A DNA stretch of 64,000 nucleotides from Pontibacter kalidii (GTDB taxonomy: Bacteria > Bacteroidota > Bacteroidia > Cytophagales > Hymenobacteraceae): assembly GCF_026278245.1 (NCBI RefSeq), contig NZ_CP111079.1, forward strand, positions 186,001 through 250,000, written 5' to 3'. Every line of letters begins with the position of its first letter. Position 1 is the first letter of the stretch. The notes under the pieces are model-generated. The model did not search any database and had not been told where the DNA came from. It was given only the letters and a program-made list of their open reading frames with translations. This document shows, piece by piece, positions 33,551-62,242 of the stretch. The position numbers and the translations under genes are program-made.

Positions 33551-33575
33551 GAGTAAGGCTAAAGTATGAGCTTTA

Positions 33576-33611: not shown

Positions 33612-33649
33612 CGGTCCTGGCTTATACCTTTCCTGGCGCAGATCTTCAG

Positions 33650-35539: not shown

Positions 35540-35618
35540 CTAAAAGTTAAGAGTTAAGAGTGATGAGTTAAGAGTTTTCGGTGCATCCTATAAGTATTCA
35601 CGGCTACCTGCCCTCGTG

Positions 35619-36020: not shown

Positions 36021-36034
36021 CTGGGATACTACTA

Positions 36035-36577
36035 TCAGAGGCTTTTCAGGAAATCCTCGTCCAGCGGCTCTGTGTCGTCGTCATCTTCCGGGTTATGAGG
36101 GGCGTCCCAGTCCACTTCGCTTAAAAGCTCCAGTCCTTCCATAATCAGCTCGTCCAGTTCCTCTTTGGTGCCCGAGTCCAGGGTGAGTTCGAACAGGTGC
36201 AGGATCTGCTCGCGCTGTGGGTTGACAAAGATCTCGTGGTACAGGTTATCAAACGAGGCGATGCGCTTCTGCACGATTTTGTCTATTTCGCGGGTATTTT
36301 TGGCCTTGATCGCCTCCTGCAGCACCTCCAGCACCTCTTTGCTCTTCTCGTTCTCGGCCAGGCGCAGAAATGCCTTCACAAATGCGATAGCCACGCCCAG
36401 GCGCAGGCGCTCAAATCGGTAACTCAGCTGCTCCCTGCTGCTGCCCTGGGAGAACTTCGCCTCCCGCAGGGCACGCTCCAGGTCGGTGTACACGGTGGCG
36501 GCCCCTTCCTCAAACACAGGAGGGTTGGGGCTGTCGAAGGCGGTTTCTAGTAGCAGTTCAAAGCTTCTGGCGCTCAT
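36035..36577 (-). CDS. Conserved hypothetical acidic helical protein
   Basis: Cytoplasmic protein of 180 residues with no signal or membrane segment. It appears mostly helical (FERLRLGVAIAFVKAFLRLAENEKSKEVLEVLQEAIKAKN) and ends in a very acidic tail (NPEDDDDTEPLDEDFLKSL). I do not recognise the family. First gene of the likely unit with DUF2721 and queA. Its promoter must lie in the large divergent spacer before the giant adhesin gene. Confidence 0.75.
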   Translation of the reverse strand: MSARSFELLLETAFDSPNPPVFEEGAATVYTDLERALREAKFSQGSSREQLSYRFERLRLGVAIAFVKAFLRLAENEKSKEVLEVLQEAIKAKNTREIDKIVQKRIASFDNLYHEIFVNPQREQILHLFELTLDSGTKEELDELIMEGLELLSEVDWDAPHNPEDDDDTEPLDEDFLKSL

Positions 36578-36753
36578 GGCAGGTATGGTTTAGCATCTGG
36601 AAATAAGACTGCAAAGGTAACAGTTTATACTTTCTTTCACCATGCCTTGTTCGCCCTGTGCAACTAAGCTGTCTGCCTAGCATTGTTGTACCTTATTTCT
36701 TAGGATGATAACTATACCTTAATGTGCGCTGATAGTATTTATTTAATTTGGCT

Positions 36754-36800
36754 GCTACCTTCCAGGCAAAAGGTTTACACCCCTTTGCCTGGAAGGTAGC
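36754..36800. repeat. Long hairpin in divergent spacer
   Basis: The arm GCTACCTTCCAGGCAAAAGG (36754-36773) pairs with 36782-36800 over 19 bp with one bulged A, and the loop has 8 bases. It is stable, but no T-run follows directly; T-rich sequence comes only ~20 bases later. Neither flanking gene needs a terminator here, because both point away. Confidence 0.75.
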
Positions 36801-37055
36801 CGAAAGGCAGGCAGGCAGATTTTTTGATTTTTCAGAGGATGCTGATGGACGGGGCAGGTGTTGTGCTGTGTTATACTTTAATTATTTGTAAGTATAATCA
36901 TAGTTACGTTTAGTACCTGTTTTTGATTTTTATATATATAGTTATTGTGTTGCTTGCCATACGTGTAATACCTTTATTTGTTGTATAATTCGATTAGAAA
37001 TGTTTAGGCTTCATATCTTGCGGGTTTTGGAGCCGGAGCGGTTGCACAATGTTGG

Positions 37056-37070
37056 GGTGCAAGTTGCACC
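37056..37070. promoter_or_regulatory. GGTGCAA-G-TTGCACC palindrome, possible operator
   Basis: A perfect 7-bp inverted repeat around one base, with a further GTTGCAC half-site at 37041-37047. It lies about 350 bases before the adhesin start. Suitable for a dimeric regulator; identity unknown. Confidence 0.35.
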
Positions 37071-37418
37071 GTTTCTGTGCATCTTCTCACTATGTGAGTC
37101 TAGAGTAGCCTGCTTCTCCGGGTGTGGGAAGGGTTGTTAAAGTGCAACAGTGCCTTTAGTAGGCTTAGGAAGGTGGCTTAGAACCGGATTGGACAATTGT
37201 AGCCGGGAGGAAGGTGGTGTGTATAAGTGGAGAGTTTTCACCCAGCGGGACTATTTATAATTATAAGTAAGATTATACCTATAACATGTCGATTTGCAGG
37301 CGCAAAAAAATAGCACAGGACTACAGCTGCCTATTGCCAGATACGGCAACAGCTTATTACACAAGGAAATTACAGGATAATCACCGCATAAAATTGATAT
37401 AGTTTTAAACAGGAGCTT

Positions 37419-40400: not shown

Positions 40401-43400
40401 CTCACCGGTTTTGTGGCTGGCACGCATACGGTCTACGCCAAGGATGCCAACGGATGTGTGGTGTCAGGTTCCTTTACAGTTGCCAACATTGCTGGTCCTA
40501 CGGCAGTGGCGGCTACCTCGCTGCCTGCCGGTTGCGCCAACAACGACGGTAGCATTACCGTGGGCACCGTAACCGGTGGCACGGCCACTTATACTTACTC
40601 CATCAACGGGACCAGCTTCCAGAGCTCGAAAACCTTCTCTGGCCTGGCTTCAGGAACCTATACGGTCACGGCGAAAGACGCCAACGGCTGTATCATTACC
40701 AGGTCTATATCAGTAGGAAAGACAGCTCCGACCAACTTTGCAGCTACAACTGAACCTTCCACCTGTGGTAGCAACAATGGCACCATCACCGTGGGCGCAG
40801 TTACAGGTGGCGTATCGCCTTATACCTATAGCAAGGATGGCGCAAACTTCCAGGCATCTGCTACACTGACAGGCTTTGTGGCGGGCACGCACACCATCAC
40901 GGTGAAGGATGCCAAGGGCTGTACCTTCTCCAAATCGATCACGGTAACGGATGTAGCAGGCCCTTCGGATCTGGCAATTGCTGCCACGGCCTCTACTTGT
41001 GGCAACAGCAACGGTCAGTTTACCGTGAGTGGCGTAACGGGAGGAACTTTGCCTTATACCTATAGTATAGACGGCTCAACCTTCCAGACTTCCGACACGT
41101 TTACGGCCCTTGCTGAGGGCTCTTACACGGTTACCGTAAAAGACGCCAACGGCTGTACCTACGCTGAAACAGTGGCGGTAAGCAACATAGAAGGTCCATC
41201 GTTCACACTTTCAGCCAAAGCCTCCACCTGCGGGGCCAGCAACGGAACGGTAACCGTAAACAGCCCGACTGGCGGCACGGCACCTTATACCTACAGCAAA
41301 GACGGCACGACTTTCCAGACCTCAGCTACATTCACAGGGCTGGCAGCAGGGGAGTATACCATCACCGTAAAAGATGCCAACGATTGCGTGCTGCCTCAAA
41401 CAATAGAAGTGACAGACATCCCGGGCCCAAGCGACCTGGCCCTGTCGAGCACGGCTTCTACCTGCGGCGACCCTAATGGGGTGATCAGCATCAGCGGCGT
41501 AACCGGAGGTACGGCACCTTATACTTATAGTATCGATGGCACCAACTTCCAGGGCTCCCAGACATTCGGGGCAGTGCTGGCAGGGGAGTATACCGTAACG
41601 GTGAAAGACGTGAACGGCTGTATTTTCACCAAAGAGATCGTGGTAGGCAACGTGGCCGGACCAACCGGTATCACAGCAACTACCACTTCCTCCACCTGTG
41701 GCAGCAACAATGGCGAAATTAGAGTAACGGGTGTAACGGGCGGTACAGGTGCTTATACCTACAGCAAGGATGGCGTAAACTTCCAGGCATCTGCCACACT
41801 TACCGGTTTTGTAGCCGGCACGCACACGATCTACGCCAAAGATGCCAACGGCTGTACAGTGGCCAAAGCCTTTACGGTGTCAGACATTGCCGGACCTTCT
41901 GCCGTGGCGGCTACCTCGCAGCCAGCCAGTTGCCAGGATAACGATGGCAGCATCACGGTGAGCAAGGTAACAGGCGGCACAACGGATTATACTTACTCCA
42001 TCAACGGCACTACTTTCCAGAGCTCAGCCAACTTTACCGGGCTGGCCTCCGGAACATACACGGTTACGGCGAAAGACGCCAACGGCTGTATCATCACTAC
42101 TTCTGTAAAAGTAAACCTAAACGTACCCACCGCCTTTGCCAACTCTTCGGTAGCAGCCACCTGCGGCCGCCCGGACGGGCAACTGACGATAGGAACGGTA
42201 ACTGGCGGCACGGCTCCATACAAGTATAGTATAAACGGGGCGCCGTTCCAGACAGCAGCTACCTTCACAGGACTTTTGGCCGGTTCTTACGAGATCACAG
42301 TGCAGGATGCCAACGGCTGTGTGTTTACAGACTCGGTGGGCGTGAGTAACCTCAATGGACCAGCTTTCGGTACAACGGTCGCCGCAACAACCTGCGGCGC
42401 TGCGAACGGAAGTATAAAAATCAGCAACACCACAGGGGGCGTGGCGCCTTATACCTATAGTATAGATGGCGTGAACTTCCAATCAGCAACTACTTTTGAA
42501 GGCCTGCTGGCCGGTACCTACACCGTTACTGCGAAAGATGCCAAGGGTTGCTTTGGCACCAGCCAGGTAGTAGTGGAAGACATTGCCGGACCAAGCGACT
42601 TTATGCTGACCGCTACCTCCTCTACTTGTGGTGCGAGCAACGCGACCATTACCGTAAGCGATGTGGCAGGCGGAACATCAACTTATACCTATAGTATAGA
42701 CGGGAAGAACTTCCAGTCTGCTGCTACTTTCGCTAACCTTGCAGCCGGCGAGTATACCGTAACGGTGAAAGACGCGAATGGCTGTACCATCAGCAAAGCG
42801 ATTGAACTGAACGACATCCCTGGCCCAAGCGAGCTGCTGCTGACTTCCACTGCTTCTACCTGCGGTGAGAGCAACGGTAAAATTGAGGTGAGCGGCGTAA
42901 CGGGCGGCACGGCTTCCTATACCTTCTCCATCGACGGCAATACCTTCCAGCAGGGAGCGGTCTTTGCCGGAGTAGCAGCCGGCGAGTATACCGTAACGGT
43001 GAAAGACGCTAACGGCTGTACGCTGTCCAAGAAGATTGTAGTGGAGAACACCGGTGGGCCAACGGGCTTCCTGGCGAGCGCCACTTCCTCTACCTGTGGC
43101 GCGGCCAACGGTAAACTGGCGGTGACAGAAGTGACGGGCGGTGTGGGACCTTATGCATATAGTATAGATGGCGTGAATTTCCAGGAAGGGCTGGTGTTTG
43201 AGAACCTGCTGGCCGGAGAGCACACGATCACCGTGAAGGATAAGAATGGCTGTACCTTCGCCAAAACCTTTACGGTAGGAGATATTGCCGGCCCTACGGC
43301 GGTTGCCGCTACTGCGCTTCCGGCCAGCTGCCAGAACAACGACGGCAGCATCATGGTGGGAGCGGTAACGGGCGGAACGTCCGAGTACACTTATTCCATC

Positions 43401-46400
43401 GATGGTAGAAACTTCCAGACGTCAACTACCTTCAGCGGCCTGGCTTCGGGAGATTACACGGTAACAGTGAAAGACAAGAATGGCTGTACTTTTACCACAA
43501 GTATAAAAGTGAACCAGAACGTACCAACTGATTTTGCCAGCACCACCGTAGCCTCTACCTGCAGCGATAGCAATGCCAGTATTACGGTAGGCGCTGTAAC
43601 CGGCGGCACGGCTCCTTATAAGTATAGCCTGAACGGCGGCAGCTTCCAGGCCTCGACTACATTTGGCAACCTGGCAGCGGGCACTTACAACATCACCGTA
43701 CGGGATGACAATGGCTGTACCTTCAGCAAAGAGGTAAAGGTGGAAGACATCGCCGGACCATCGGCTCTCGCTTTAACCGGAAAGGCCTCTACCTGCGGCA
43801 GCCCGAACGCTTCTATCACCGTGAACGGTGTGACGGGCGGCACGGCTCCTTATACCTTCAGCCTTAACAACTCAGCCTTCCAGGGCAGCACCAGCTTCGG
43901 CTCGCTGCCTGCCGGAGCGTATGAGCTAACGGTGAAGGATGCCAACGGCTGTACCTTTACCCAGGCCATTACGCTGGAGAACATCCCGGGTCCATCTGCT
44001 TTTACTGCCTCAACTTCAGCCTCGAGCTGCGGCCGGGCAAACGGAAGTGTAACCGTGGATGCCGTAACCGGCGGAACCGCGCCTTATACCTACAGTGCAG
44101 ACGGAGAGAACTTCCAGGAAGCTGCCACCCTGGCAGGACTGTTGGCCGGAGAGCATACCATCATCGTGAAAGATCAGAATGGTTGTGTGGTGGAGATGAA
44201 AGTAGTAGTAGAGGATGTGGCGGGCCCGTCCGGGTTGGAGTTGGCAAGCACCGCCGCTACGTGCGGCGATCGCAATGGCAGCATTACGGTAGGCAAGGTT
44301 ACGGGCGGCACGGCTCCATACAAGTATAGTATGGATGGGGCGAGCTTCCGGAACGAGCTTACTTTTGAAGGAGTGCTGGCCGGCGAGTATACGATCACGG
44401 TGGAGGACGCCAAGGGCTGTAGGTTCTCTGCAAGTATAAGAGTAGACAACATCGGCGGGCCTACCGACTTTGTAGCTACAGCCAAAGCAACTACCTGTGG
44501 TGCCAGCAACGGCGAGTTAAACATAAGCAACGTGAGCGGCGGTGCCGGCTCCTATGCTTATAGTATAGATGGCGCAAACTTCCAGGCTTCGGCCACTTTT
44601 GTGGGCTTGGCTGCCGGTTCCCACACCATCACGGTAAAAGACGCCAACGGCTGTACGTTTACCAAAGCGGTGGAAGTAACGAACATTGCCGGACCTAGCG
44701 CTATAACGGCAGCTACCAAAGCGGCCAGCTGTGCCGACAATGACGGCAGCATTACGGTAACCCGCGTAACCGGCGGTACCTCAGCCTATACTTACGCTAT
44801 CGACGGGAAGAACTTCCAAAGTGCGGCCAGCTTTACAGGCCTTGCTTCCGGAGAGTATACCATCACGGTAAAAGATGCCAACGGCTGCGAGTTCTCCGAC
44901 AAAGTGAAGGTGAGTAAGGATGGCCCGGCAAGCTTTGCCAGCTCCACTGCCGCTTCTACCTGCGGTGCCGAAAACGGCCGCATCTCGGTTGTGTCTGTGG
45001 AGGGGGGCGCGGTGCCTTACACCTATAGTATAAACGGCGGCAGTTTCCAGAACTCAGCGGTCTTCACCTCGCTTCTGGCCGGCTCCCACACCATTACGGT
45101 AAAAGACGCCAACGGCTGTACCTATACCCAGGAGGTGGAAGTAAGCAACATGGAGGGTCCTTCAGACCTGACGGCCTCCGCTACCACCACCACCTGTGGC
45201 AACAGCAACGGCCAGATCAGCATCTCGGAGGTAACCGGCGGAACAGCGCCTTATACCTATAGTGTGGATGGCGTGAACTTCCAGGCTTCTGCCACCATCA
45301 CAGGACTTGCCGCCGGCGAGTACCAGGTGACGGTAAAAGACGCCAACGGCTGTATCGTAGTAAAAGCAGTAACGATCACGAACCAGTCAGGTCCGGAAGG
45401 ATTTACGGTGACAGGCAAAGCCGCTACCTGCGGCGGCGCTAATGGCCAGGCTACGGTAAGTGCCGTGGTCGGTGGCAAGGCTCCTTATACCTACAGCAAG
45501 GATGGCACGAGCTTCCAGCCGGAGCCTACGCTGACGGGACTAGTTGCCGGCACGCATACCATCACGGTAAAAGATGCCAACGGCTGTACCTTCTCCAAGC
45601 AAATAGTTATCGAGAACATTGCCGGACCTGCCAACTATGACCTGGCTACTGTGGCTACTACCTGCGGCGCTGCCAACGGTTCTATCACGGCAAGCAACGT
45701 AACGGGTGGCACGGCTCCTTATACCTACGCCCTGAACGAAGGCAACTTCCAGGCTGCGGCTACCTTTGCAGACGTAGCGGCCGGCGAGCATACCATCCGG
45801 GTGAAAGACGCCAACGGCTGTATCCTGGAGAAGAAAGTGGTAGTAACGGATATTGCTGGTCCTTCTGAGATCGTGGCCGCTACTACACCCACTGCCTGCA
45901 CAGCCAACAACGGTACTATTACCGTGAGCGGCGTAACCGGTGGCAAAGCGCCTTATACGTACTCCCTCGACGGTAAAGCTTACCAGGCTACGGCGACCTT
46001 TGGTGCGCTGGCGGCAGGAGAGTACGATGTATTTGTGAAGGATGCTAACGGCTGCAGCGCCACGGTGATAGTAACGGTAGGCCTGAAAGGTCCGAAAGAG
46101 GCTTCCCTGGCTGCCAAAGATGCTACCTGCGGAGAGCAGAACGGCTCGATCACGGTTACTGCTGTGAAGGAGGGGACCAAACCGCTGGCTTATAGTATAG
46201 ACGGCAAAAGCTTCCAGACTTCGGCTACTTTTGGCAACTTGGCGGCGGGTGTGTATACCATCACCATCAAGGATGCTGAGGGATGTGTGCTGGAGGTAAC
46301 CCAGCAGGTAAGCAACAGCGGAGCCGCCACCTTCACGGCAACAGGCACCAATGCCAGCTGTGGCGCTGCCAATGGCCGCGTCATCATCAGCAATGTGAGC

Positions 46401-47522
46401 GGAGGCGTGAACCCTTATACCTACAGCATAGACGGTACCACCTTCCAGAACGCACCGGAGTTTACCGGCCTGGCCGGAGGAGTATACCAGGTAGCGGTGA
46501 AAGATGCTGCCGGCTGCATGAACTTCGAGGCTGTGACCATCAGCAACACGCCTCCTATCACGGACCTGAAAGCGACCGTAGCAGCCCCAACCTGCGACCA
46601 ACCAACTGGCCAGGTAACGATCAGCGAAGTAATCGGCGGTACGGCTCCTTATACTTATTCGTTAGATGGTACCAACTTCACAGCTTCTGCCACACTGGCT
46701 GATGTAGCGCCAGGCACCTATACTTTAACGGTGAAAGACGCGGCGGGCTGTACTTATAGTATAGAAGTACAGGTAGCCGAGGGCGTGAGCAGCAAGCTGG
46801 ATTATGTGCATCACCTGGCCTGCTCCGGCGGCAACACCGGCGAGATCGCTTTAGCTGCAACAGGCGCCGATGCGCAGACCCAATACAGTATCGACGGCGG
46901 CAAGACCTTCCAGAAGAGTCCGGTGTTCAAGAGCCTGGCCAAAGGCACCTACCAACTCATGACCAAATTCTCCGAAGCGTGCATTATTAACGTGGGCACT
47001 GTGGAGGTGAAGGAGGCAGAAGAGATGATGGTAGAGGTTACCGCACTCACCAAAGCGGTAGGTTTCGAGAAAACAGGCAGTGCGGCCGTAACGAAGATTA
47101 CCGGCGGGGTGGGGCCTTACACGTACTCGCTGGATGGCGGCAGCTTCTCTTCCGACTCTGTATTCACCAACCTGAGCGCCCGTGAGTACACTGTGACCGT
47201 GAAAGACAGCAGAGGCTGCTTACAGACCGAAACCTTTGTGATCGAGGGCCTCGGCGACATCGACATCCCGAACGGCTTTACGCCAAACGGCGATGGACTG
47301 AACGATACCTGGGTGCTCAAGAACCTGCCGAATCTGTATCCGGACAACCAGGTGACGGTGTACAACCGCTGGGGTAGCGAGGTGTTCTCGTCGAAAGGGT
47401 ATAAGCGCCCTTGGGATGGCACCTACAAGGGCAAGCGCCTGCCGGATGGTACTTACTACTGCATCATCGAGTTCGGCGACGGAACGGCCCCAATCAAAAC
47501 ATCAGTGACCATTATGCGCTAA
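37419..47522 (+). CDS. Giant SprB-repeat surface adhesin with CHU_C C-terminus
   Basis: Cell-surface protein of 3367 residues, like the gliding adhesin SprB. A signal peptide (SLLFAICLFGVLQLATSLGAFG) leads to ~380 residues of Ig/PKD-like sequence. About 37 tandem SprB-like repeats of ~78 residues follow, each with two Cys (TCG...NGC) and the pattern GGTAPYTYSIDG-x-FQ, AGEYTVTVKDANGC, IAGP. The end is a CHU_C type B T9SS domain (IPNGFTPNGDGLNDTWVLKNL, VYNRWGSEVFSSKGY, WDGTYKGKRLPDGTYYCII). Every sixth repeat belongs to a special class (see repeat entry). In Flavobacterium, SprB moves along the cell and pulls it over surfaces; a gliding or adhesion role here is inferred. A SprF gene follows 27 bases later. 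Confidence 0.95.
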   Translation: MITTSTQKLSLLFAICLFGVLQLATSLGAFGQGKNDEVPTFTVDLRGKPNGVWRSDEIIRNGQLCGITDKNENCVQFTIILDPNAEQMEFDIIKGPVPSGSMGYQIDCGPQMPVGQPICVDVSKPITLTLCMPGKAGGVFEIRSLASFTPQEDVSVTMGCSATLIAPLSFGEGTIQWRDITYNGTYNKYLSFPNGDTRPLVTPDANAPAYVDYEVTGTTVATKCPGRFASDVVRVYFYPPPTVTVGPNPAIICPGSSGVVLTGSVTGGDGNWEYIWTDPAGNVVGNQLNYTATTVGTYKFEVRNVNYPNCREFSATVDVASNLAANAGPDQLACSQNPVQLAGAITAATGGVWSGGGGTFSPSNTALNAVYTPTAAEIAAGSVKLTLTSTGNGSCTAMKDDVLITFYPIDVELTGTPVICNGTLGTITAKVTGGNGTISYKWSTGQTTSTITGVAAGTYTVTVTDGQSCAITKSFTVTQVNGPTDFTVSATQETCGRSDGSVTISNVQGGTATYKYSADGKTYQTGTTLSNLAAGNYTLYVMDANGCTVSKSVTITNVAGPTAVTASTVAASCANNDGGITVGAVTGGTSPYTYSINGSTFQSSTSFTGLASGAYTVTAKDANGCIITTSASVAKRILTNFTATAASSTCGASNASITVSNVQGGIAPFQYSKDGVSFQDNATLTGLAAGIYRVTVKDARGCILTKSVTVGNIAGPTDLTATAKASTCGDSNAEITVTGVTGGTGTYTYSIDGATFSASSSFTGLAAGNYTVYVKDGNGCIYSEAVALTNIAGPDFTATAQSSTCGASNGRISIGGVTGGISPYKYSKDGATFQDAATFTGLAAGTYNITVKDANGCFLVKSVTVTDIAGPSDFALAAKSSTCGASNGSITVGAVTGGTSTYTYSIDGSNFQSSATFGNLLAGEYTITVRDRNLCVIAKKITVTDVAGPTNLAASSKSSTCGGSNGELTVTGVTGGTAPYTYSKDGTNFQASATLTGFVAGTHTVYAKDANGCVVSGSFTVANIAGPTAVAATSLPAGCANNDGSITVGTVTGGTATYTYSINGTSFQSSKTFSGLASGTYTVTAKDANGCIITRSISVGKTAPTNFAATTEPSTCGSNNGTITVGAVTGGVSPYTYSKDGANFQASATLTGFVAGTHTITVKDAKGCTFSKSITVTDVAGPSDLAIAATASTCGNSNGQFTVSGVTGGTLPYTYSIDGSTFQTSDTFTALAEGSYTVTVKDANGCTYAETVAVSNIEGPSFTLSAKASTCGASNGTVTVNSPTGGTAPYTYSKDGTTFQTSATFTGLAAGEYTITVKDANDCVLPQTIEVTDIPGPSDLALSSTASTCGDPNGVISISGVTGGTAPYTYSIDGTNFQGSQTFGAVLAGEYTVTVKDVNGCIFTKEIVVGNVAGPTGITATTTSSTCGSNNGEIRVTGVTGGTGAYTYSKDGVNFQASATLTGFVAGTHTIYAKDANGCTVAKAFTVSDIAGPSAVAATSQPASCQDNDGSITVSKVTGGTTDYTYSINGTTFQSSANFTGLASGTYTVTAKDANGCIITTSVKVNLNVPTAFANSSVAATCGRPDGQLTIGTVTGGTAPYKYSINGAPFQTAATFTGLLAGSYEITVQDANGCVFTDSVGVSNLNGPAFGTTVAATTCGAANGSIKISNTTGGVAPYTYSIDGVNFQSATTFEGLLAGTYTVTAKDAKGCFGTSQVVVEDIAGPSDFMLTATSSTCGASNATITVSDVAGGTSTYTYSIDGKNFQSAATFANLAAGEYTVTVKDANGCTISKAIELNDIPGPSELLLTSTASTCGESNGKIEVSGVTGGTASYTFSIDGNTFQQGAVFAGVAAGEYTVTVKDANGCTLSKKIVVENTGGPTGFLASATSSTCGAANGKLAVTEVTGGVGPYAYSIDGVNFQEGLVFENLLAGEHTITVKDKNGCTFAKTFTVGDIAGPTAVAATALPASCQNNDGSIMVGAVTGGTSEYTYSIDGRNFQTSTTFSGLASGDYTVTVKDKNGCTFTTSIKVNQNVPTDFASTTVASTCSDSNASITVGAVTGGTAPYKYSLNGGSFQASTTFGNLAAGTYNITVRDDNGCTFSKEVKVEDIAGPSALALTGKASTCGSPNASITVNGVTGGTAPYTFSLNNSAFQGSTSFGSLPAGAYELTVKDANGCTFTQAITLENIPGPSAFTASTSASSCGRANGSVTVDAVTGGTAPYTYSADGENFQEAATLAGLLAGEHTIIVKDQNGCVVEMKVVVEDVAGPSGLELASTAATCGDRNGSITVGKVTGGTAPYKYSMDGASFRNELTFEGVLAGEYTITVEDAKGCRFSASIRVDNIGGPTDFVATAKATTCGASNGELNISNVSGGAGSYAYSIDGANFQASATFVGLAAGSHTITVKDANGCTFTKAVEVTNIAGPSAITAATKAASCADNDGSITVTRVTGGTSAYTYAIDGKNFQSAASFTGLASGEYTITVKDANGCEFSDKVKVSKDGPASFASSTAASTCGAENGRISVVSVEGGAVPYTYSINGGSFQNSAVFTSLLAGSHTITVKDANGCTYTQEVEVSNMEGPSDLTASATTTTCGNSNGQISISEVTGGTAPYTYSVDGVNFQASATITGLAAGEYQVTVKDANGCIVVKAVTITNQSGPEGFTVTGKAATCGGANGQATVSAVVGGKAPYTYSKDGTSFQPEPTLTGLVAGTHTITVKDANGCTFSKQIVIENIAGPANYDLATVATTCGAANGSITASNVTGGTAPYTYALNEGNFQAAATFADVAAGEHTIRVKDANGCILEKKVVVTDIAGPSEIVAATTPTACTANNGTITVSGVTGGKAPYTYSLDGKAYQATATFGALAAGEYDVFVKDANGCSATVIVTVGLKGPKEASLAAKDATCGEQNGSITVTAVKEGTKPLAYSIDGKSFQTSATFGNLAAGVYTITIKDAEGCVLEVTQQVSNSGAATFTATGTNASCGAANGRVIISNVSGGVNPYTYSIDGTTFQNAPEFTGLAGGVYQVAVKDAAGCMNFEAVTISNTPPITDLKATVAAPTCDQPTGQVTISEVIGGTAPYTYSLDGTNFTASATLADVAPGTYTLTVKDAAGCTYSIEVQVAEGVSSKLDYVHHLACSGGNTGEIALAATGADAQTQYSIDGGKTFQKSPVFKSLAKGTYQLMTKFSEACIINVGTVEVKEAEEMMVEVTALTKAVGFEKTGSAAVTKITGGVGPYTYSLDGGSFSSDSVFTNLSAREYTVTVKDSRGCLQTETFVIEGLGDIDIPNGFTPNGDGLNDTWVLKNLPNLYPDNQVTVYNRWGSEVFSSKGYKRPWDGTYKGKRLPDGTYYCIIEFGDGTAPIKTSVTIMR
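38650..47246 (+). repeat. SprB-like coding repeats, ~234 bp, in a six-repeat higher-order array
   Basis: About 37 coding repeats of ~78 codons. The first Cys codon of the marked class (A-S/G-C-x-N-N/D-N/D-D-G) falls at 39135, 40533, 41931, 43329 and 44730, and the repeat in the same phase at 46128. The spacings are 1398, 1398, 1398, 1401 and 1398 bp. Other classes keep the same phase, for example the NGEL/NGEI/NGKL class two repeats before each marked repeat's predecessor. The array seems to have grown by copying blocks of six repeats. Confidence 0.9.
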
Positions 47523-47549
47523 TTGCCCATTTACCAAACAAGACGTGTT

Positions 47550-48494
47550 ATGAAAAATTACCTTCTCATATTTTGCTTTCTGCTCGTTGGTTCGGTAGCT
47601 GTGGCGCAGCAGAAGGCGCTGTACAGCCAGTACATGACCAATTACTTTCTCCTGAACCCGGCCGTGGCCGGGGTGGAGAAGGACTGGAACATAAAAGCCG
47701 GCTACCGCAACCAATGGACAGGTTTTGACGGAGCACCCCAGACCTTTTACCTGAGCGCCGAGACAGCCCTGTTTAAGCGCAGCATTGGCCGTAGGGCCAA
47801 ACCTTACCACGGTGCTGGCGGCTACATCTACAAAGACCAGACGGGGCCGATCTCACAGACGGGTTTGCTGCTCTCTTACGCCTACCACGTGCCCATTAAC
47901 AAGAGCATCTACCTCTCGTCGGGCGTATTTGCAGGAGTGCAGCAGTATAAGTTTGATGAGAACAAGATCCACCTGGCGGATGGCTCAAATGAGCGCGACC
48001 CGGTAACGCAGCAGGGAAGTATAAATGCCTTTATGCCCGACCTGAGTGTGGGCACTTACCTGCATTCGGAGGAGTTTTTTGTGGGAGCCTCATTGTTTCA
48101 GGCGCTGGGCAACAAGATCAATAAGAACAAGGAGATCGAGGACCCGGCCCGCCTCTCGCGCCACCTGTTCGTCTCGGGCGGGTATCACTTTGATGTGAAC
48201 CGTGAGATCACTGTAACGCCCTCGGTGCTGCTCAAGTACGTGAGCCCGGCCCCGATTCAGGCCGACATCAACGTGCGCGGCGAGTACCACTTTACCAAGC
48301 GCCGCAAAACCGTATACGATGACATGGTGTGGGCCGGTATTTCCTACAGAACGCAGGATGCCGTGGTGGGTCTGATCGGGGTGCAGTTTAAGGAGCAATA
48401 CCGCCTCAGCTATACCTATGACATCACCGTATCGCCCATGCGCCACCACAGCGCCGGCTCGCATGAGATTGTGCTTGGGTTCAGGATGCCGTAA
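47550..48494 (+). CDS. PorP/SprF family outer-membrane protein (module 2)
   Basis: Outer-membrane protein of 314 residues, paralogue of the one at 19804-20805. I use the ATG at 47550 (MKNYLLIFCFLLVGSVAVAQ) because it begins a signal peptide; the frame from 47523 only adds nine residues. Conserved points: QKALYSQYMTNYFLLNPAVAG, NQWTGFDGAPQTFYLS, LLLSYAYHVPINKSIYLSSGVFAG, HLFVSGGYHFDVNREITVTPSVLLKY, and C-terminal HEIVLGFRMP. It lies 27 bases behind the giant adhesin and, as for SprB/SprF, is expected to be needed for that adhesin's export or surface attachment. A strong terminator closes the unit. Confidence 0.95.
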   Translation: MKNYLLIFCFLLVGSVAVAQQKALYSQYMTNYFLLNPAVAGVEKDWNIKAGYRNQWTGFDGAPQTFYLSAETALFKRSIGRRAKPYHGAGGYIYKDQTGPISQTGLLLSYAYHVPINKSIYLSSGVFAGVQQYKFDENKIHLADGSNERDPVTQQGSINAFMPDLSVGTYLHSEEFFVGASLFQALGNKINKNKEIEDPARLSRHLFVSGGYHFDVNREITVTPSVLLKYVSPAPIQADINVRGEYHFTKRRKTVYDDMVWAGISYRTQDAVVGLIGVQFKEQYRLSYTYDITVSPMRHHSAGSHEIVLGFRMP

Positions 48495-48504
48495 CAGGAG
48501 CTTG

Positions 48505-48560
48505 AAAGTATAAACAGGAATGGCCGGGGTATTTGCTCCGGCCATTCCTGTTTATACTTT
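48505..48560 (+). terminator. Long hairpin terminator built with the AAGTATA motif
   Basis: A 23-bp perfect stem: 48505-48527 with 48538-48560. The outer part of the stem is AAAGTATAAA / TTTATACTTT, so a motif pair in inverted orientation forms the base of the terminator. The T-run is the motif's own TTTATACTTT. Confidence 0.75.
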
Positions 48561-48734
48561 GGCTATACTTTATACTTGTTGATTTATACTTGCTGCTCCT
48601 ATAGCCTCCCTTGTGCAAGCGTCCGCTTGTGCCTTTTTATACTTTACACTTTAGCTATACTTTGCCCATACTTCCGCTGGCGCGGGCTTGCAGCCCGTGT
48701 CTTTATATAGATCATACGTGCTTTGGCTATACTT
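48506..48734. repeat. Cluster of eight AAGTATA/TATACTT heptamers
   Basis: Copies begin at 48506, 48553, 48564, 48571, 48585, 48638, 48656 and 48728. This is the densest group in the window of a motif found both in genes and in spacers. Confidence 0.85.
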
Positions 48735-48736
48735 CC

Positions 48737-48983
48737 ATAGCCGCTGCTTCCCGCAGTATGACACAAGCTATCCTTGCTAGCTGCTGCTGATCCACGGCTT
48801 AATAACCTGCTCTTTTCATCTCTGGCTTTGATGCTCTCCAGCCCGAGAGGGCTCGTCCTTTGGCATCGCGCGGTGTACATTTCCTTTGCTACCCTTCGGT
48901 CGCAATGCCGCCAAGGCGGCACCGGAAATCTACAAGGCGCTCAACCCAAGGACTGGGATCAGAATCGATAGCCACCGCTACTT
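48737..48983 (-). repeat. Dispersed ~240-bp repeat, copy D
   Basis: Inverted copy: ATAGCCGCTGCTTC (48737-48750) at one edge, TCGATAGCC (48965-48973) at the other. Inside are TTGGTGC-like and CTCTCCAGCCCGAGAGGGCTCGTC blocks and a GCCGCCAAGGCGGC hairpin. A short minus-strand frame shares a peptide with the frame in copy A, but I do not think it is a gene. Beyond it lie GC-rich AGGGAGGGCTGGGG-type blocks (49105-49180). Confidence 0.85.
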
Positions 48984-49198
48984 GTCATCTCGAACGTAGT
49001 GAGAGATCTATATGGAATTCCGGATAGATCTCTCACAGCTACGCTGGCTCTCCTCGGCTCCCGCCTCAAGAGTACTCGAGATGACAGGGAAAGGAGTAAG
49101 TATAGCTCCCTCTCCTGTTCTTAGGGGAGGGCTGGGGTGGGGTGAAATTCCCCTCCTCGGAGGGGCTAGGGGTGGGTTTCATACTTTGTAGTCCTGCT

Positions 49199-49296
49199 GT
49201 TCCGGATTTGTAATCCGGAACGCTGTTACCTGCGGATTTGCAATCCGCTTTTCTGTCCGTAGCTACTGCCTTTGCTATGGCGGATTACAAATCCGC
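49199..49296. repeat. Array of CGGATT-NNN-AATCCG palindromes
   Basis: Three hairpins in 100 bases: arms GTTCCGGATT / AATCCGGAAC (49199-49221), GCGGATT / AATCCGC (49232-49248) and GCGGATT / AATCCGC (49280-49296), each with a three-base centre (TGT, TGC, ACA). A fourth, TTCGGATT-GCA-AATCCGAA, begins at 49309 and is split by the IS element. Confidence 0.85.
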
Positions 49297-49322
49297 GGCT
49301 AAGCTGCCTTCGGATTGCAAAT

Positions 49323-50583
49323 TAGGAGTGTTCGGAAGTTGTTTACGTTTTCATATTGGCAAAGACAATCTCTGGTTTTCCTCCTGCTATGACGATAAGC
49401 AAGGCCGTGATACGTTCATCAAGCTCCATGGCAAATCTTCTTTTGGCGGTTTTGTATCCCAGCTCATTTACTTTCCTGTAGACCAACAGCATCATGGCCA
49501 GTATCAGCGTCATGTAAAGGATGATTTTGATACCGTTGAGGCTGACCGTGAGCAGATGGGAGAGGTTGAGCTCCTGCTTGAGAAAGCGGAAGAAGACCTC
49601 TATGTCCCAGCGCCTGCGGTAGAGCCTGGCAATGGCCTTAGCCGATACGTCAAAGCGGTTGGTGAGCAAGGGAATCACTTTGCCTTTGTCGGTCACAGCT
49701 TTGATGAGGCGAAAAGGCACCTCGACCTGCTTGCCATGGGAGTAGAGCCAACACAACTCATCGCTGAGGATGCGCACGTTGCCTACCCGCTCTCCAGCCG
49801 CCGTCGAGAAACAAGTGCCGGTTTGGCAGCGGGCATTCTTCTTGAGCCGGGTGATAAACCAAAGCTGCTTTGCATCTATCCGGCAAAAGCTCCTGCGCTG
49901 CTGCACGCCCCTGTCGAAGACAACCACGTTGTCCTCGGCTGCTACCTGGCCCAGGATAAGCCTGGCAATGGTCTTGTCCTCGCTCAACTCGGATTGTTTG
50001 GAAAACAGCTCCACGGAGGAGGGAAACAGGTCCTGCAGGGCCAGCGTGTACTTGATCTGTTTTTTGCCGTCCTTCTTGCGCCCCACACGCATACCGGCCT
50101 CCAATTTGTTGGCCTGCTCGCAAACCATGGTCGAGTCAACCCGGGTAATGGAGTGGCCTGCTGCCTGCTGCTCCCCGTAGTGGCGCGAGAAGAGGTGATA
50201 GACCTGCTGATAGGCCTGCTCAAAAAAGCTCACTGGCATGGTGGCCAGCCTGTCGGAGAGGGAGCTGTGGCTGATCTGGGAAGAGGCATCGAGCTTGGCA
50301 AACGCCCGGAACTTGGCTGTGTTGAAATAATCTGCTAGGCTCCGCTGCCCTATTCTCTCATCACTTATCAGACCGTAGAGCAGCAGGTAAAACATGCTGC
50401 GCCCATACAACTTATGCACCTTGTAATCAACTCTCGTCTGATGGGCAAGAGCAGAAAAGCTCTCCTCGGGAATATACTGCAGTAAGGATTCCACACTTAC
50501 TTTGGTAGAGGATATAATAGCGGCCATAACTTTTATGCATTATCCTTTCTTTTACGATTCCATAACTCTTCCGAACACTCCTA
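49323..50583. mobile_element. Intact IS4-family insertion sequence (1261 bp)
   Basis: Perfect 16-bp terminal inverted repeats TAGGAGTGTTCGGAAG at 49323-49338 and, inverted, 50568-50583. The flanks show a 9-bp target duplication ATTGCAAAT (49314-49322 and 50584-50592). It contains one complete transposase gene on the minus strand, which ends 20 bases from the left edge. Removing the IS and one duplicate restores TTCGGATTGCAAATCCGAA, a member of the neighbouring palindrome family. The perfect ends and open transposase suggest a recent insertion. Confidence 0.93.
49343..50527 (-). CDS. IS4-family DDE transposase
   Basis: Transposase of 394 residues, complete. The DDE residues are Asp131 (ITRVDSTMV), Asp205 (VVVFDRGVQQ) and Glu310. 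The last lies in YRRRWDIEVFFRFLK, which matches the IS4 signature Y-(2)-R-(3)-E-(6)-K exactly. An N-terminal DUF4372-like helical part (MFYLLLYGLISDERIGQRSLADYF) precedes the catalytic domain. The large plus-strand frame over this gene (49238-50338) is an antisense shadow. Confidence 0.95.
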   Translation of the reverse strand: MAAIISSTKVSVESLLQYIPEESFSALAHQTRVDYKVHKLYGRSMFYLLLYGLISDERIGQRSLADYFNTAKFRAFAKLDASSQISHSSLSDRLATMPVSFFEQAYQQVYHLFSRHYGEQQAAGHSITRVDSTMVCEQANKLEAGMRVGRKKDGKKQIKYTLALQDLFPSSVELFSKQSELSEDKTIARLILGQVAAEDNVVVFDRGVQQRRSFCRIDAKQLWFITRLKKNARCQTGTCFSTAAGERVGNVRILSDELCWLYSHGKQVEVPFRLIKAVTDKGKVIPLLTNRFDVSAKAIARLYRRRWDIEVFFRFLKQELNLSHLLTVSLNGIKIILYMTLILAMMLLVYRKVNELGYKTAKRRFAMELDERITALLIVIAGGKPEIVFANMKT

Positions 50584-50630
50584 ATTGCAAATCCGAAAGA
50601 GCAGGAATGGGTGGGTTCCATACTTTGTAG

Positions 50631-50650
50631 GGACAGGTCGCGACCTGTCC
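50631..50650. repeat. GGACAGGTCGCGACCTGTCC palindrome
   Basis: A perfect 20-base palindrome in the spacer between the IS and the M14 gene, preceded by ATACTTTGTAG as in the copy at 34066-34085. Nearby GGGTAGGGGTGG and CTCCTTGGACAAGGAG blocks also recur in island B. Confidence 0.75.
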
Positions 50651-50755
50651 GCGCAATACCAACAGAAACGGAGTTCATACTTTAACAGAAGTATGACAGG
50701 CTCCCCTCCTTGGACAAGGAGGGGTAGGGGTGGTTGGGCCCATTACCCCAAAACA

Positions 50756-50795
50756 AAAAATGCCTCTCTCCTAAAACAAGGAGAGGGGCATTTTT
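50756..50795. terminator. Terminator of the M14 carboxypeptidase gene
   Basis: A 17-bp stem with one G-T pair: 50756-50772 with 50779-50795, A-run and T-run on the two sides. It lies just beyond the minus-strand stop codon. Confidence 0.88.
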
Positions 50796-50812
50796 GCGGT
50801 TGCTAAACTTCC

Positions 50813-53401
50813 TTAGTGTGCCGCTTCCTCGGCGCGGGCGGAGCTGCCGCTGATGATCTGGCCAAAGAAGATGCTGTTGAGGAACAGCTTGTTGGTACCA
50901 TACCAGAAGGCCCGGAAGTTCGGGTTATCCGGCATCGCGATCACCTTGCCGGCACCCACGGTTGACACATCCACAGCAGCAGTATTTTTTATCCGCTGCA
51001 GGTTTGGCTTGGAGATGTAGCCTGCCATCAGCGGCTCCGAGGTGTACATCACCGGGTTAGCGTAAGGGCTCTTGGAGCGTTCCATAAACAGGGTATTGCT
51101 GCGGAAGATCGGCAGCCTCGCATCGGTATAGCCGTAGGCCAGCGGGTGCGTCAGGTCTAGCTTCGTCTCAAAAATAGCCCCTCCGATGACGTGTGCGCCT
51201 TCCGCATTTTCCAGGTCAGCATAGGCTCTTTGGGCAATGGTATCGGGTTCTGCTTTCTTGAAGGTAATGTTACCGATGCCGTTGTCGGCGAGCCACTTGG
51301 CTGCGCCGCCCATACCTACCACTGTGCCTCCCTGCTGCACCCAGGCACGCAGTTTATCCTTGGAGATGTTGTTGTAGGAGCCTTCTGCCATCACCAGCAC
51401 GTTATACTTGTTCAGGTCAGTCCGGTTAAAGTCATTGGTTTTTACAAGTGCAGGGCGCATCCCGAAGCGGTCGTCCATCAGGTGCCAGGCCTCACCGGCG
51501 TCGTAGCTGTTCACCCCGTCGCCAATCAGCATCATGATCTTGGGTTGCTCCAGGCTGCGCACCATCGGGCTGCCCAGTTTTATACCTTGCGGCGTGAAGC
51601 CGGTGTTCATGGCGTATACCTGTAGGGCGTTTTGCTGGGCTAACTCCTGTAGTACCTGGTGCAGTTGATCGGCATTTATATTTTGTCCCGCTACAGGTAT
51701 CAGGATGGTGCCATAGTCGAACTGCTTACCGTCAGTGGCGGTAAATTTATCAGTGGCCACGCGGGCGCTGATGCCGCGGTCCATGAGCTGGTTCAGCGCG
51801 CGGGGAGCGTAGTAGCCGTGCCACTCAAAGGCATAGGCGTAGTCGCTTTTGCCGCCTATCACTTCGCCTGTCGGTAAACGTAGCTCTTCTACCTTCTGGC
51901 CCAGCTGGCTCTTCTTAAAGTTGCGGGAAGAGAGGGCCGCGTGTTCCAGGTCGAAAGCGAGCGGGAAGGTCCAGGCAGAGATGTCGTAGAACAGGCTGTC
52001 CTTAAACGTCGTTCGTTTCTCGAACATCGCCTCGATGAGCTTATACTGCGGCTGCTCCGTGGGCACAATGTAAGCGTTCTCCGGCGTGTATTCTACATCA
52101 TTGATCTTAAAGCTTTCCTTCGGACGGTACACGGCAATCTGGTGCTGTCGGATGATCTCGGCCAGGTGATAGGCGCGGGCCTTGTCCATCTCCGAGCCAA
52201 AAACATAGGCCTTCGTGCTGGCTTTCTTCGCATCGCTCAGGGCGTCTTTGTAGAAATCGCGCTGGTGTACCAGCAGCTCCTCGCGCATGGCCTGCGCTGC
52301 CTCTAAGGTGGAGAGGGTGGTGGTAAACTGGTTGCGGATAGTGAAAGGGAAGGTCAGTACACCGTTTACGCTCTCCTGGGCGTGTCCGCGGGAGCTGGCC
52401 TGTTCGAAAAGTATACCCACTGCTCCGTGGATATCCGGGTACGTAGAGCCCTTGCCGAAGTAGAAGTCGTCGAAGCTTTCCTCGGTATAATAAAAAGAGC
52501 CGATCTTATCTAAAGCCTTGGCGTGGTAGGTGCCTATTTTCTGCGTGAGCTTATAGTTGCTCTCCGGGGTGAGCGGGTTGTTACGGCTTGGAATGCCGGG
52601 TTGAAAGAAGAACGTAGAGTTGGTGCCCATTTCGTGGTGGTCGGTCAGCACGTTCGGCTTCCACTCGTGGAACTTGGCCAGCCTGCCCCTGGACTCCGGG
52701 TGCTGCAGCGGCAACCAGTCGCGGTTCAGGTCGAACCAGTAGTGGTTGGTACGGCCACGGGGCCAGGCCTCACTAAACTCGGCGCTGTTGGGGTCGGTTA
52801 CCAGGTTTTTGCTGCGGTGCGAGTTTACCCAGCTGGCAAAGCGGTTCATGCCGTCCGGGTTAATGGAAGGGTCGATGAGGATAATGGTCTCGTCCAATAG
52901 CTTCTCGATCTCTGGTCCCTGTGCGGCGGCCAGGTGGTACACGGCCAGCAGCGAGGCATTGCTGCCACTCGGTTCGTTGCCGTGCACGCTATAGCCCATC
53001 CATACCACCGCTGGCATGTCCTTTATGTTCAAGCTGCCGGACTTTTCCGGGTCTGTCAGCTGGCGGTGCTGCTCCTTTATTTTCTCAAGGTTCTGGTGGT
53101 TCTTGGGCGAGGTGATGGTAAGCAGGTACAGTGGCCGATTCTCGTGGGTGCGGCCATACTCTGTGATGCTGATGCGGTCCGAGAGGCTGGCCATCTGGCG
53201 CATGAACATCACCAGCTGGTCGTGGCTGGCATGCCACTCGCCCACATTATAGCCCAGGATGTCTTTAGGTGTGGGAATACTGCTGTTGTACGAGGCCGCA
53301 GCAGGCAGGTAGTAGGAGAGTGGAGTTTCAGCCTGCTGTGCCACTGCCACCGGGCCAAGCCCCAGCATGGCTGCCACAGCAAGTACGCGTAGGTTTTTCA
53401 T
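50813..53401 (-). CDS. Secreted M14 family zinc carboxypeptidase
   Basis: Exported metallopeptidase of 862 residues. A signal peptide (VLAVAAMLGLGPVAVAQ) precedes an M14 catalytic domain in the first ~400 residues: zinc ligands His140 and Glu143 in SVHGNEPSG, the region INPDGMNRFASW, FDLNRDWLPLQHPES, a likely third His in LTDHHEMGTNS, and a late Glu in GILFEQASSRG. The C-terminal half contains a glutamine-amidotransferase-like fold segment (KIMMLIGDGVNSYDAGEAWHLMDDRFG, YNVLVMAEGSYNNISKDKLRAWVQQGGTVVGMGG). No T9SS signal is seen. It probably digests peptides in the periplasm or outside. Stand-alone gene. Confidence 0.93.
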   Translation of the reverse strand: MKNLRVLAVAAMLGLGPVAVAQQAETPLSYYLPAAASYNSSIPTPKDILGYNVGEWHASHDQLVMFMRQMASLSDRISITEYGRTHENRPLYLLTITSPKNHQNLEKIKEQHRQLTDPEKSGSLNIKDMPAVVWMGYSVHGNEPSGSNASLLAVYHLAAAQGPEIEKLLDETIILIDPSINPDGMNRFASWVNSHRSKNLVTDPNSAEFSEAWPRGRTNHYWFDLNRDWLPLQHPESRGRLAKFHEWKPNVLTDHHEMGTNSTFFFQPGIPSRNNPLTPESNYKLTQKIGTYHAKALDKIGSFYYTEESFDDFYFGKGSTYPDIHGAVGILFEQASSRGHAQESVNGVLTFPFTIRNQFTTTLSTLEAAQAMREELLVHQRDFYKDALSDAKKASTKAYVFGSEMDKARAYHLAEIIRQHQIAVYRPKESFKINDVEYTPENAYIVPTEQPQYKLIEAMFEKRTTFKDSLFYDISAWTFPLAFDLEHAALSSRNFKKSQLGQKVEELRLPTGEVIGGKSDYAYAFEWHGYYAPRALNQLMDRGISARVATDKFTATDGKQFDYGTILIPVAGQNINADQLHQVLQELAQQNALQVYAMNTGFTPQGIKLGSPMVRSLEQPKIMMLIGDGVNSYDAGEAWHLMDDRFGMRPALVKTNDFNRTDLNKYNVLVMAEGSYNNISKDKLRAWVQQGGTVVGMGGAAKWLADNGIGNITFKKAEPDTIAQRAYADLENAEGAHVIGGAIFETKLDLTHPLAYGYTDARLPIFRSNTLFMERSKSPYANPVMYTSEPLMAGYISKPNLQRIKNTAAVDVSTVGAGKVIAMPDNPNFRAFWYGTNKLFLNSIFFGQIISGSSARAEEAAH

Positions 53402-54306
53402 GAGTAAGGGTGAAGTATAAGGTTAGATGTTTGGTTATACCTGCAATTTCCTGTTTTACGGAGCTTTTTGCAAGTATAAAAAGCCCTGAATTGGTGCAGC
53501 AGCTTTAGGTTTAGCGACACGCTAAATAGTACAAGGCCTTTGTGGTGCTGTAGGTTCTGTTGTAGTTATATTTCGCTTGTTAAAGTATTGACTACCAATA
53601 ATAAGTGTGATTCCGGTCTTTCCTGTTTGCCCTTTCCATACTTTCTTTCACCCTTCTACGGAGTAGTTATACTTCTAAAAGTTGCCGCTGCCAGAGCGCA
53701 AAAGCTACAGCATGCCTCCGGTATAGTTCAGTATAAGATCATATTCCGTGCTCCCTGGGTTGAAAAATATAAATGAAACTGGATGAAATTCCAATGCAAT
53801 TTTCAGGTGGCCATTTATTCAACTACAAGGCTGTGGTGTGCAAAACACCCTATGCAATTAAACTTCAGGAGATTGTAGCCTTATAAATATGTGCAATTTT
53901 AATACTTTATATATAATTTATGTAATAAATAGTAGGTTTTAGCTGCAACAAAATATAGAAGGTAAGGTATAAGTTCTTTAAATAGTAAAATAAACTATAG
54001 AAATAGGACATGTATGACTGCTGACTCTGCCTTTCACTACAAGCGCGGGGCTCCTTGAGGCTCCAGCTGACGTGAAGTAGCCCTTAGGAACATTCTTTTT
54101 ACGCGCTCCTTCAGCCTTACGACATCGGTTAATGTGATTTAACCCACCTGCAATAGGGTTTTAGCTATTAAAAATAGCTGTTAAACCTATTGCCCAGCCA
54201 TGTTTTGCCCTACTGTAAAGTATCCGAGCTTTCGATCCACCTGACCATTTAATCAACCAAGGCCAAAGCGACACAGCCTTAAACCCACGCATTATCCCCT
54301 AAATTT
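53402..54306. other. Large AT-rich divergent spacer before the 2624-residue protein gene
   Basis: 905 bases. The M14 gene and the surface-protein gene both start here and point away. The middle (about 53760-54010) is very AT-rich. A hairpin with GCAATAGG / CCTATTGC outer and AGCTATT / AATAGCT inner arms lies at 54150-54193, ~113 bases before the ATG. A 78-codon plus-strand frame at 53540 is Cys/Ser/Leu-rich with no features and I do not call it. Confidence 0.6.
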
Positions 54307-62181: not shown

Positions 62182-62209
62182 CAACAAAATTTAATAGGGT
62201 TTAAAGCTG

Positions 62210-62242
62210 AAAGAGCCGGGTATTTTACCTGGCTCTTTTGCA
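62210..62242 (+). terminator. Terminator of the 2624-residue protein gene
   Basis: AAAGAGCCGGGT / ACCTGGCTCTTT (62210-62221 with 62227-62238) with one G-T pair, then TTTG. Confidence 0.82.

Follow-up and report, generated by a model that had tools for sequence, protein, structure and literature searches.

An over-represented, lineage-specific short word with dialects in Pontibacter, a candidate mark for self-DNA uptake

To our knowledge, uptake sequences are known only from the Neisseriaceae and the Pasteurellaceae, two families of Proteobacteria in which type IV pili serve for DNA uptake; DNA carrying the USS is likewise taken up by pili. The abstracts of PMC1939737 and PMC7811141 name these two families for uptake sequences. 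Frye et al. 2013 (PMC3630211) describe the Neisseriaceae words (DUS) as short, non-palindromic and present in thousands, both inside and between genes, with clade-specific dialects; a genome of 2.4 Mb holds 5,918 copies, two dialects coexist in one genome, and inverted pairs lie at terminators. The USS of the Pasteurellaceae has a short over-represented core, and derivatives with one mismatch are also enriched, according to the part of PMC1939737 that treats them. The cyanobacterial HIP1 is a single over-represented octamer per genome with lineage-specific alternates, and in the excerpts available from PMC4390886 the HIPs are palindromes with known methyltransferases, for which Elhai proposed methylation-dependent repair. 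Within the Bacteroidota, Riemerella (Flavobacteriia) transforms with partly novel machinery: as far as the available text of PMC8459023 goes, a transposon screen found ComEC, DprA, ComF and RecA to be essential together with four novel proteins, and novel proteins are predicted on the cell surface and in the outer membrane. The Riemerella paper PMC8383284, searched for uptake-sequence terms, contains none, and among the titles listed in searches of the open literature none reports an uptake sequence or comparable word in Pontibacter, the Cytophagales or the Bacteroidota.

The window studied here is a stretch of 64,000 nucleotides from a Pontibacter genome of two contigs and 5,054,860 bases. 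The initial annotation had pointed to eight copies of the heptamer AAGTATA within 229 bp and had suspected a genome-wide signal. This suspicion was borne out: the genome holds 8,861 copies, 4,451 and 4,410 on the two strands, and the reversed word, used as a control, occurs 356 times (170 + 186), so that AAGTATA is present in 25-fold, strand-balanced excess throughout. Counting both strands, 126 copies lie in the window; over 100 dinucleotide shuffles of it the number averaged 5.3 and never exceeded 12. In a count of the window's 7-mers against a third-order Markov model, the kind of model that had been proposed as a check, AAGTATA tops the deviations, with 25.4 copies expected, a conservative figure as the model was trained on the window itself. 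Neither a count at the Markov level nor an enrichment confined to the window, the two outcomes named in advance as speaking against the signal, was seen. The best 8-mer of the window is AAGTATAA, found 2,681 and 2,590 times on the two strands of the genome (reversed control, 51 and 61). DUS and USS, too, are short words in gross genome-wide excess on either strand. The observation is larger than could be seen from the window, and we consider it practically certain that the word is genuine, lineage-specific and maintained.

The cluster that drew attention is at 48.5 kb, and its eight copies begin exactly at the positions first given (Table 1). The accompanying estimate of 0.03 copies expected in 229 bp is correct if all four bases are equally frequent; measured more fairly against the genome's own intergenic density of 33 per 10 kb, about 0.76 copies would be expected. 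The cluster is the densest 229-bp stretch in 444 kb of this genome (8 copies; the next distinct cluster has 7); it is the extreme of a genome-wide pattern and no separate object. The hairpin seen there is real, the predicted fold of 48490-48580 having an energy of -50.3 kcal/mol and z = -9.9. Copies named at other places were found within a few bases of the positions given, at 2385/2392, 6473/6476, 11085-11091, 12677, 17475 and 31170.

Table 1. Positions of the word and of associated structures in the window
Feature	Position	Strand	Evidence or remark
Whole window	1..64000	.	126 copies, part of 8,861 in genome
Two tandem words just 3' of valyl-tRNA-synthetase-like frame (19-2379)	2385..2398	+	word search
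Palindromic word pair AAGTATACTT	6473..6482	.	word search
Stem-loop, 26 pairs, loop of 4, 3' of PorP/SprF gene, two inverted words in stem	48505..48560	+	fold
AAGTATA word, left arm of terminator-like hairpin	48506..48512	+	word search, fold
AAGTATA word, right arm of 48505-48560 hairpin	48553..48559	-	word search, fold
AAGTATA word	48564..48570	-	word search
AAGTATA word, 7-bp tandem with 48564 copy	48571..48577	-	word search
AAGTATA word	48585..48591	-	word search
AAGTATA word	48638..48644	-	word search
AAGTATA word	48656..48662	-	word search
AAGTATA word	48728..48734	-	word search

Several local features of the window were recorded along the way. Minus-strand words at 39192, 39657, 40122, 40590, 41520 and 41988, all inside a 3,367-residue frame at 37419-47522, are spaced by 465-468 bp (once 930), so that a repeated protein domain probably accounts for a few of the copies. 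Palindromes of the form GGATT-N(1-5)-AATCC lie at 49204, 49234 and 49282, within about 90 bp; these are three of only five in 444 kb and form a local REP-like cluster adjoining a transposase gene at 49343-50527. Most of the window's longest word-free stretch is filled by two neighbouring 599-residue TrkH-family genes (23172-26926).

Placement was studied with 735 copies in 444 kb of this genome, made up of the window and 19 stretches of 20 kb, in which genes were called with a simple purpose-made gene caller. Information is confined to (A)AAGTATAA(A) and falls to background within about 2-3 bases on either side of the 7-mer; neighbours with one mismatch are mildly enriched, mainly at the two 3' positions. 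Genes hold 397 of the 735 copies (222 sense, 175 antisense) in all six coding frames, at 11.5 per 10 kb, and the spaces between genes hold 33 per 10 kb, 2.9 times the genic density. For the reversed word the genic density is 0.38 and the intergenic density 0.71 per 10 kb. The intergenic copies were densest between convergent genes (79 per 10 kb), followed by divergent (44) and tandem genes (31), so the crowding at 3' ends of genes described at the outset holds in this genome. Among seven dialect-A samples the ratio of intergenic to coding density ranged from 1.5 to 3.7, and among five dialect-B samples from 1.0 to 3.6; for word C it was 3.1 in G030 and 2.2 in P. fetidus (the dialects are defined below). 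Spirosoma profusum had a ratio of 0.64 and Persicitalea one of 0.51, and the intergenic excess was absent from the samples of these two and of G015. Genic copies together with denser intergenic ones, as in DUS and USS, are thus found here, with Spirosoma profusum and Persicitalea as exceptions.

Because counts of AAGTATAA were strikingly uneven among relatives, other words were sought in 100-kb samples. The genomes G003, G005, G010, G011 and G015 carried AGGTATAG (logo CAGGTATAGC), G030 carried AACTATAG, and the samples of G002 and G025 had no word of comparable strength. We call AAGTATAA, AGGTATAG and AACTATAG words A, B and C; all three are non-palindromic. With a dominant word defined by at least 2,000 copies, the 50 Pontibacter genomes divide into 20 with A, 12 with B, four with C (G018, G030, G060, G066), three with both A and C (G026, G032 and G065) and 11 low in all. 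Identical word counts show G065 to be P. fetidus and G024 to be P. pamirensis. The three mixed genomes, in which both words reach 2,000 copies, are possibly caught between dialects. Dominant counts run from 2,246 to 7,030 for A, 2,823 to 5,222 for B and 6,292 to 8,208 for C, against 65-200 for the reversed words; the 11 low genomes are above zero, with A counts of 204-1,201 against 116-336 reversed. Dialects in related species are a further property of DUS and USS. In a species tree of eight of the 50 Pontibacter, built from seven window genes, the A species grouped together with the low-word P. pamirensis (G024) nested inside (support 0.82), and therefore the word can be lost within a dialect group; the two B species paired (support 1.00), and P. 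fetidus, mainly C, was placed weakly (support 0.33).

Three further observations were made on these genomes. The 11 low-word genomes are larger than the others (median 5.8 vs 4.6 Mb, p = 4e-6, from rounded sizes and with kinship ignored). The samples of G002, G011 and G025 have CCAGTTC/GAACTGG over-represented about 2.4- to 3.1-fold, whatever their dialect. At G020:C1:1944098-1946626 there are at least 39 copies of AGGTATAG, one every 64-69 bp; the array looks like a CRISPR, and its repeat would contain the dialect-B word within a dialect-A genome.

To ask how far the words persist at orthologous sites, codon alignments of nine window genes were made with seven named Pontibacter loci, the background being the frequency of identical 7-mers; four of the 13 window genes had been dropped for having fewer than three species, and some species lack some of the nine kept. 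Within the close A pair L002/L003 the word was kept at 18 of 25 and 18 of 28 sites (background 0.22), and within the B pair at 8 of 15 and 8 of 9 (background 0.29). From this genome to L002, L003 and L006 the figures were 6/12, 5/12 and 3/8 (background 0.13-0.14). All 12 ordered A-A comparisons, which are non-independent, gave 72 identical of 194, and the distant A pairs, L002 and L003 to L006, were at background (2/16 and 2/19). In close pairs, then, the word is maintained at orthologous sites within a dialect, well above background, as uptake sequences are. Between dialects, 78 site comparisons that started from A words gave no identical sequence in a B species, and 96 that started from B words gave 15 identical ones in A species (background 0.10-0.145). 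In 16 ordered A/B comparisons of these genes one dialect's word was never found on the other's site, and therefore new dialects are mostly written at new places. A words were above background in P. fetidus, as its mixed A+C content would give, and one A/C place holds both words.

The second contig of the genome, 73.8 kb, is plasmid-like, with a TraG-like protein 98% identical to that of a P. actiniarum plasmid. It has 20 copies, or 2.7 per 10 kb (Markov expectation 14-16), whereas the chromosome samples of this genome have 16.6 per 10 kb; for two dialect-A chromosomes the figures are 14.4 and 16.6. Densities are similarly low on plasmid Paks1 of P. akesuensis (2.3 per 10 kb in 100 of 116 kb) and on a plasmid of P. 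actiniarum (3.9 per 10 kb in 100 of 204 kb). The genome G020 is probably P. actiniarum, a methyltransferase being at the same place on its second contig. For AAGTATAA the G020 genome has 4.5 per 10 kb (2,246 in 5.0 Mb) vs 1.6 on the P. actiniarum plasmid stretches, and given that probable identity the difference between chromosome and plasmid is about threefold for that species. Any slow process would, however, leave replicons that are young or turn over fast short of the word as well. We also considered whether word-free gaps in the chromosome are foreign DNA, and rejected this; the longest gaps hold ordinary genes. From the six gaps of greatest length in the 444 kb, ten proteins were scanned, of which nine match known families (among them glycosyltransferase, polysaccharide deacetylase, urease, sdhA, SusC/SusD, atpA and RND permease) and one matches none, and no mobile element was found among these ten.

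Genes of the ComEC and DprA families are present in each of the 50 Pontibacter genomes; the comEC frame of G018 is short (561 residues), with no stop in the matched part. Both genes are multiply broken in the same two genomes, G021 (dialect A) and G009 (dialect B), which points to transformation having been lost as a unit. The comEC and dprA pseudogenes thus occur together (G009:C76 and C13; G021:C1) in genomes of different dialects. In one 100-kb sample of G021 the intergenic density is 16.8 per 10 kb vs 36.6 in the pooled samples of G000 (the genome of the window), G001, G013 and G029 (Poisson p ~4e-9); the coding density is similar (11.4 vs 13.2). Its excess of one-mismatch words between genes, 1.80, is the largest of the seven dialect-A samples (others 0.45-1.00). 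This pattern is what decay after loss of a drive would look like. The mixed genomes G026 and G032, with intact genes, have similar excesses (1.79 and 1.77). G020, also with both genes intact, has fewer words than G021 (2,246 vs 2,537), and G009 is rich in words (5,041 of B) although both of its genes are broken. Further, comEC and dprA are kept in all 11 low-word genomes, their matched regions being free of stops, and therefore the two genes do not predict the word.

A convincing type IV pilus ATPase was not found in the 50 genomes. The PF00437 family gives short partial matches in every one, covering at most 66 of 370 positions with a best score of 25.9 bits; in three of the 50 the score exceeds the cut-off of 24.9, by no more than 1 bit. 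The PF00437 search thus gives no convincing sign of the pilus machine that goes with DUS and USS, and therefore no ComP-type pilin receptor can be assumed. DUF5689, suggested as a receptor gene by Riemerella RS04920, was tried and rejected, being present in 22 of 50 genomes and not in the one studied here; ten of the 22 matches are in frames of about 1,100-1,300 residues, and some of the seven loci inspected have a neighbour that we take to be SusD-like. The comEC neighbourhood was compared among three genomes, one from each dialect; identity is 52-61% for ComEC and 78-93% for matched neighbours, and no candidate surface protein linked to comEC was seen in these three. No report of competence in Pontibacter was found in searches of the open literature.

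Different words were also found in four further genera, Rhabdobacter, Persicitalea, Spirosoma and Hymenobacter. The degenerate word AASTACC occurs 19,586 times in Rhabdobacter roseus (reversed, 2,994) and 9,003 times in Persicitalea (2,691), and in Telluribacter the counts are 5,614 and 2,549. In samples of 61-101 kb, Spirosoma profusum has ACGTAGC 172 times vs 54 expected, Hymenobacter sp. CA2-7 has GCTAGCC 103 times vs 23 expected, and Hymenobacter cavernae (L023, G095) has ACCTAGGT 134 times vs 7.0 expected, a 19-fold excess; as the word is a palindrome, each site enters both figures twice. The over-represented ACCTAGGT is a perfect palindrome that contains CTAG, a tetramer that most bacteria have seldom. 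The CA2-7 word in the form GGCTAGCC is palindromic in part.

We suggest, with a probability of roughly 0.55, that AAGTATA(A) works as a mark for the uptake of self DNA, a local dialect of a DUS-like self mark. The assignment is to a class defined by preferential uptake and is made here from sequences alone, so "DUS-like" is meant in that limited sense. The initial annotation had listed a DNA-uptake-like word among its options; this is the best of those it offered and agrees with the genome signature, from which uptake itself would follow by inference. Its remark that no known class fits was too strong, since the uptake-sequence class of the Neisseriaceae, with its dialects, fits most of the features tested. 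Counted in favour of an uptake mark are features read directly from the genomes, namely the genome-wide excess of the words, their dialects and placement, conservation between close species of one dialect, the plasmid shortage and the comEC and dprA homologues in all 50 genomes, as well as the gene breakage in G009 and G021, the decay-like pattern in G021 and transformation in Riemerella. Counted against it are the intact genes of the low genomes, the cases of G020, G009 and G026/G032, the background-level distant pairs, the missing intergenic excess in three samples, the rarity of long stems outside this genome, the ordinary genes in gaps, the other possible cause of a plasmid shortage, and the fact that neither a receptor nor a report of competence in Pontibacter was found.

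The system of Frye et al. 2013 is the closest parallel in the available text of PMC3630211: Pontibacter shares with it thousands of short non-palindromic words, dialects in related species, genomes with two dialects, and copies both within and between genes. Pontibacter differs from it in phylum, in an AT-rich core of 7-9 rather than 10-12 bp, in having no convincing type IV pilus ATPase, and in that inverted terminator pairs are a minor feature. With the USS it shares a short over-represented core and enriched one-mismatch derivatives, the latter as given in part of PMC1939737; the word is unrelated, however, there are several dialects in one genus, and the machinery differs. Riemerella belongs to the same phylum, and ComEC and DprA, needed there according to the available text of PMC8459023, were found in 50 of 50 Pontibacter genomes.

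As an uptake mark the word could act as follows. A surface or periplasmic receptor of a competence machine lacking type IV pili would bind the word on free DNA and favour fragments that carry it; ComEC would move one strand into the cell, and DprA with RecA would recombine it at the homologous place in the chromosome. Through the receptor's preference, variants bearing the word would be copied more often than those without, so that biased gene conversion would stamp the word wherever the sequence tolerates it and then keep it. If the receptor's taste shifted, a new word would grow at new places, giving dialects A, B and C, and if uptake stopped, the word would decay. Receptor and drive are thus inferred. 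An uptake signature with dialects in a phylum that can transform by other machinery would suggest that self-marking evolves repeatedly and independently of pili. The dialect map would also offer a genetic route to the receptor, namely a gene with alleles tracking words A, B and C, and harmless laboratory strains of Pontibacter, Spirosoma and Hymenobacter are predicted to be transformed in dependence on which word the supplied DNA carries.

Two rivals are a role linked to methylation and one resembling that of Chi. In a role like that ascribed to HIP1, a methyltransferase would recognize the word, methylation-dependent repair would create and keep it, and dialects would track changes of methyltransferase. 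Such a role would be in keeping with the HIP alternates of different lineages and their matching methyltransferases (in the available text of PMC4390886), and the Hymenobacter cavernae word, like HIP1, is a perfect palindrome. However, words A, B and C and those of Rhabdobacter and Spirosoma are non-palindromic, and a palindromic octamer is found only in ACCTAGGT and, partly, in GGCTAGCC. A link to methylation, followed through the PF01555 family alone, gave no match in 13 of 39 word-rich genomes, a third of them, including all four of dialect C. The plasmids, moreover, are poor in the word, though an enzyme acting in trans would act on them too. We therefore think a methylation-linked role unlikely.

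Chi words are short, asymmetric and over-represented, and differ between lineages; in E. coli Chi is strongly polar. A Chi-like or chromosome-maintenance word, whose reader would be an AddAB/RecBCD-type nuclease or a nucleoid protein and which would be under selection on the chromosome and not on plasmids, would fit the plasmid shortage and the conservation in close species, and the Pontibacter word is likewise a lineage-specific, over-represented, short and asymmetric one. Yet with replication strand assigned by the sign of GC skew, the copies in the 20 stretches divide 388:343 (p = 0.10), so that no clear polarity is seen; of the options first offered, a chromosome-organising signal is not supported in a polar form of the Chi or KOPS type. 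The density peak between convergent genes in this genome and the low counts in 11 of 50 close relatives also speak against a Chi-like word, a role to which we give a small chance.

A role in transcription termination or RNA processing, in which an A/T-rich word would have spread because it suits terminator stems and gene ends, is suggested by the convergent density of 79 per 10 kb and by the word arms in the terminator-like hairpin at 48.5 kb. Close pairs are indeed above random placement in this genome, as 7-bp tandems (a 7-bp spacing occurs 11 times in 444 kb vs 1.2 expected) and 3-bp-offset palindromes, and inward-facing pairs outnumber outward-facing ones, 61 vs 34. A stem with at least six further pairs is formed by only seven of the 61 inward pairs, however, the 48505-48560 hairpin being one, and by 0 or 1 pair in each of nine other samples; therefore terminator pairing is a minor feature. 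The dialect-B and -C samples show no consistent excess of inward pairs. A terminator-only role fails because over half of the copies are inside genes, 175 of them antisense, and it would leave the dialects without a reason; we judge it quite improbable. The self-spreading short repeat (mobile, or REP/MITE-like) also proposed at the outset is not supported and is very improbable: local clusters and 7-bp tandems beyond random placement would suit it, but the flanks are flat beyond the 9-10-bp core, with none of the conserved sequence of REPs or MITEs, copies fit every codon frame, and at aligned gapless sites (gapped ones set aside) other species differ by substitutions.

Returning to the uptake reading, all words found can be written as NNN-TA-NNN, an alignment chosen by eye and offered as a lead. 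They may belong, we propose tentatively, to a self-word system that crosses families of the Cytophagales, presumably at least the Hymenobacteraceae and Spirosomaceae, with a homologous, fast-retargeting receptor, a pilus-free transformation machine and 8-bp sites with a central TA. Each lineage would have its own triplets flanking TA, giving AAG-TA-TAA, AGG-TA-TAG, AAC-TA-TAG, AAG-TA-CCY, ACG-TA-GCR, ACC-TA-GGT and GGC-TA-GCC. If true, uptake sequences would have arisen independently once more, and the system would reveal the outer-membrane DNA receptor of the Bacteroidota. In loci of about 14-21 kb no such word was seen in three from Rufibacter and two from Adhaeribacter, nor in 13 of the 15 from Hymenobacter. 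In an order-wide survey, 20 of 22 order-level genomes were sampled, 17 stretches reached 10 kb, and none of these 17 had a word of the present kind. Very strong 7-mers were seen in G038 and G039, with 27 and 218 copies in 20 kb, and long repeats are suspected there.
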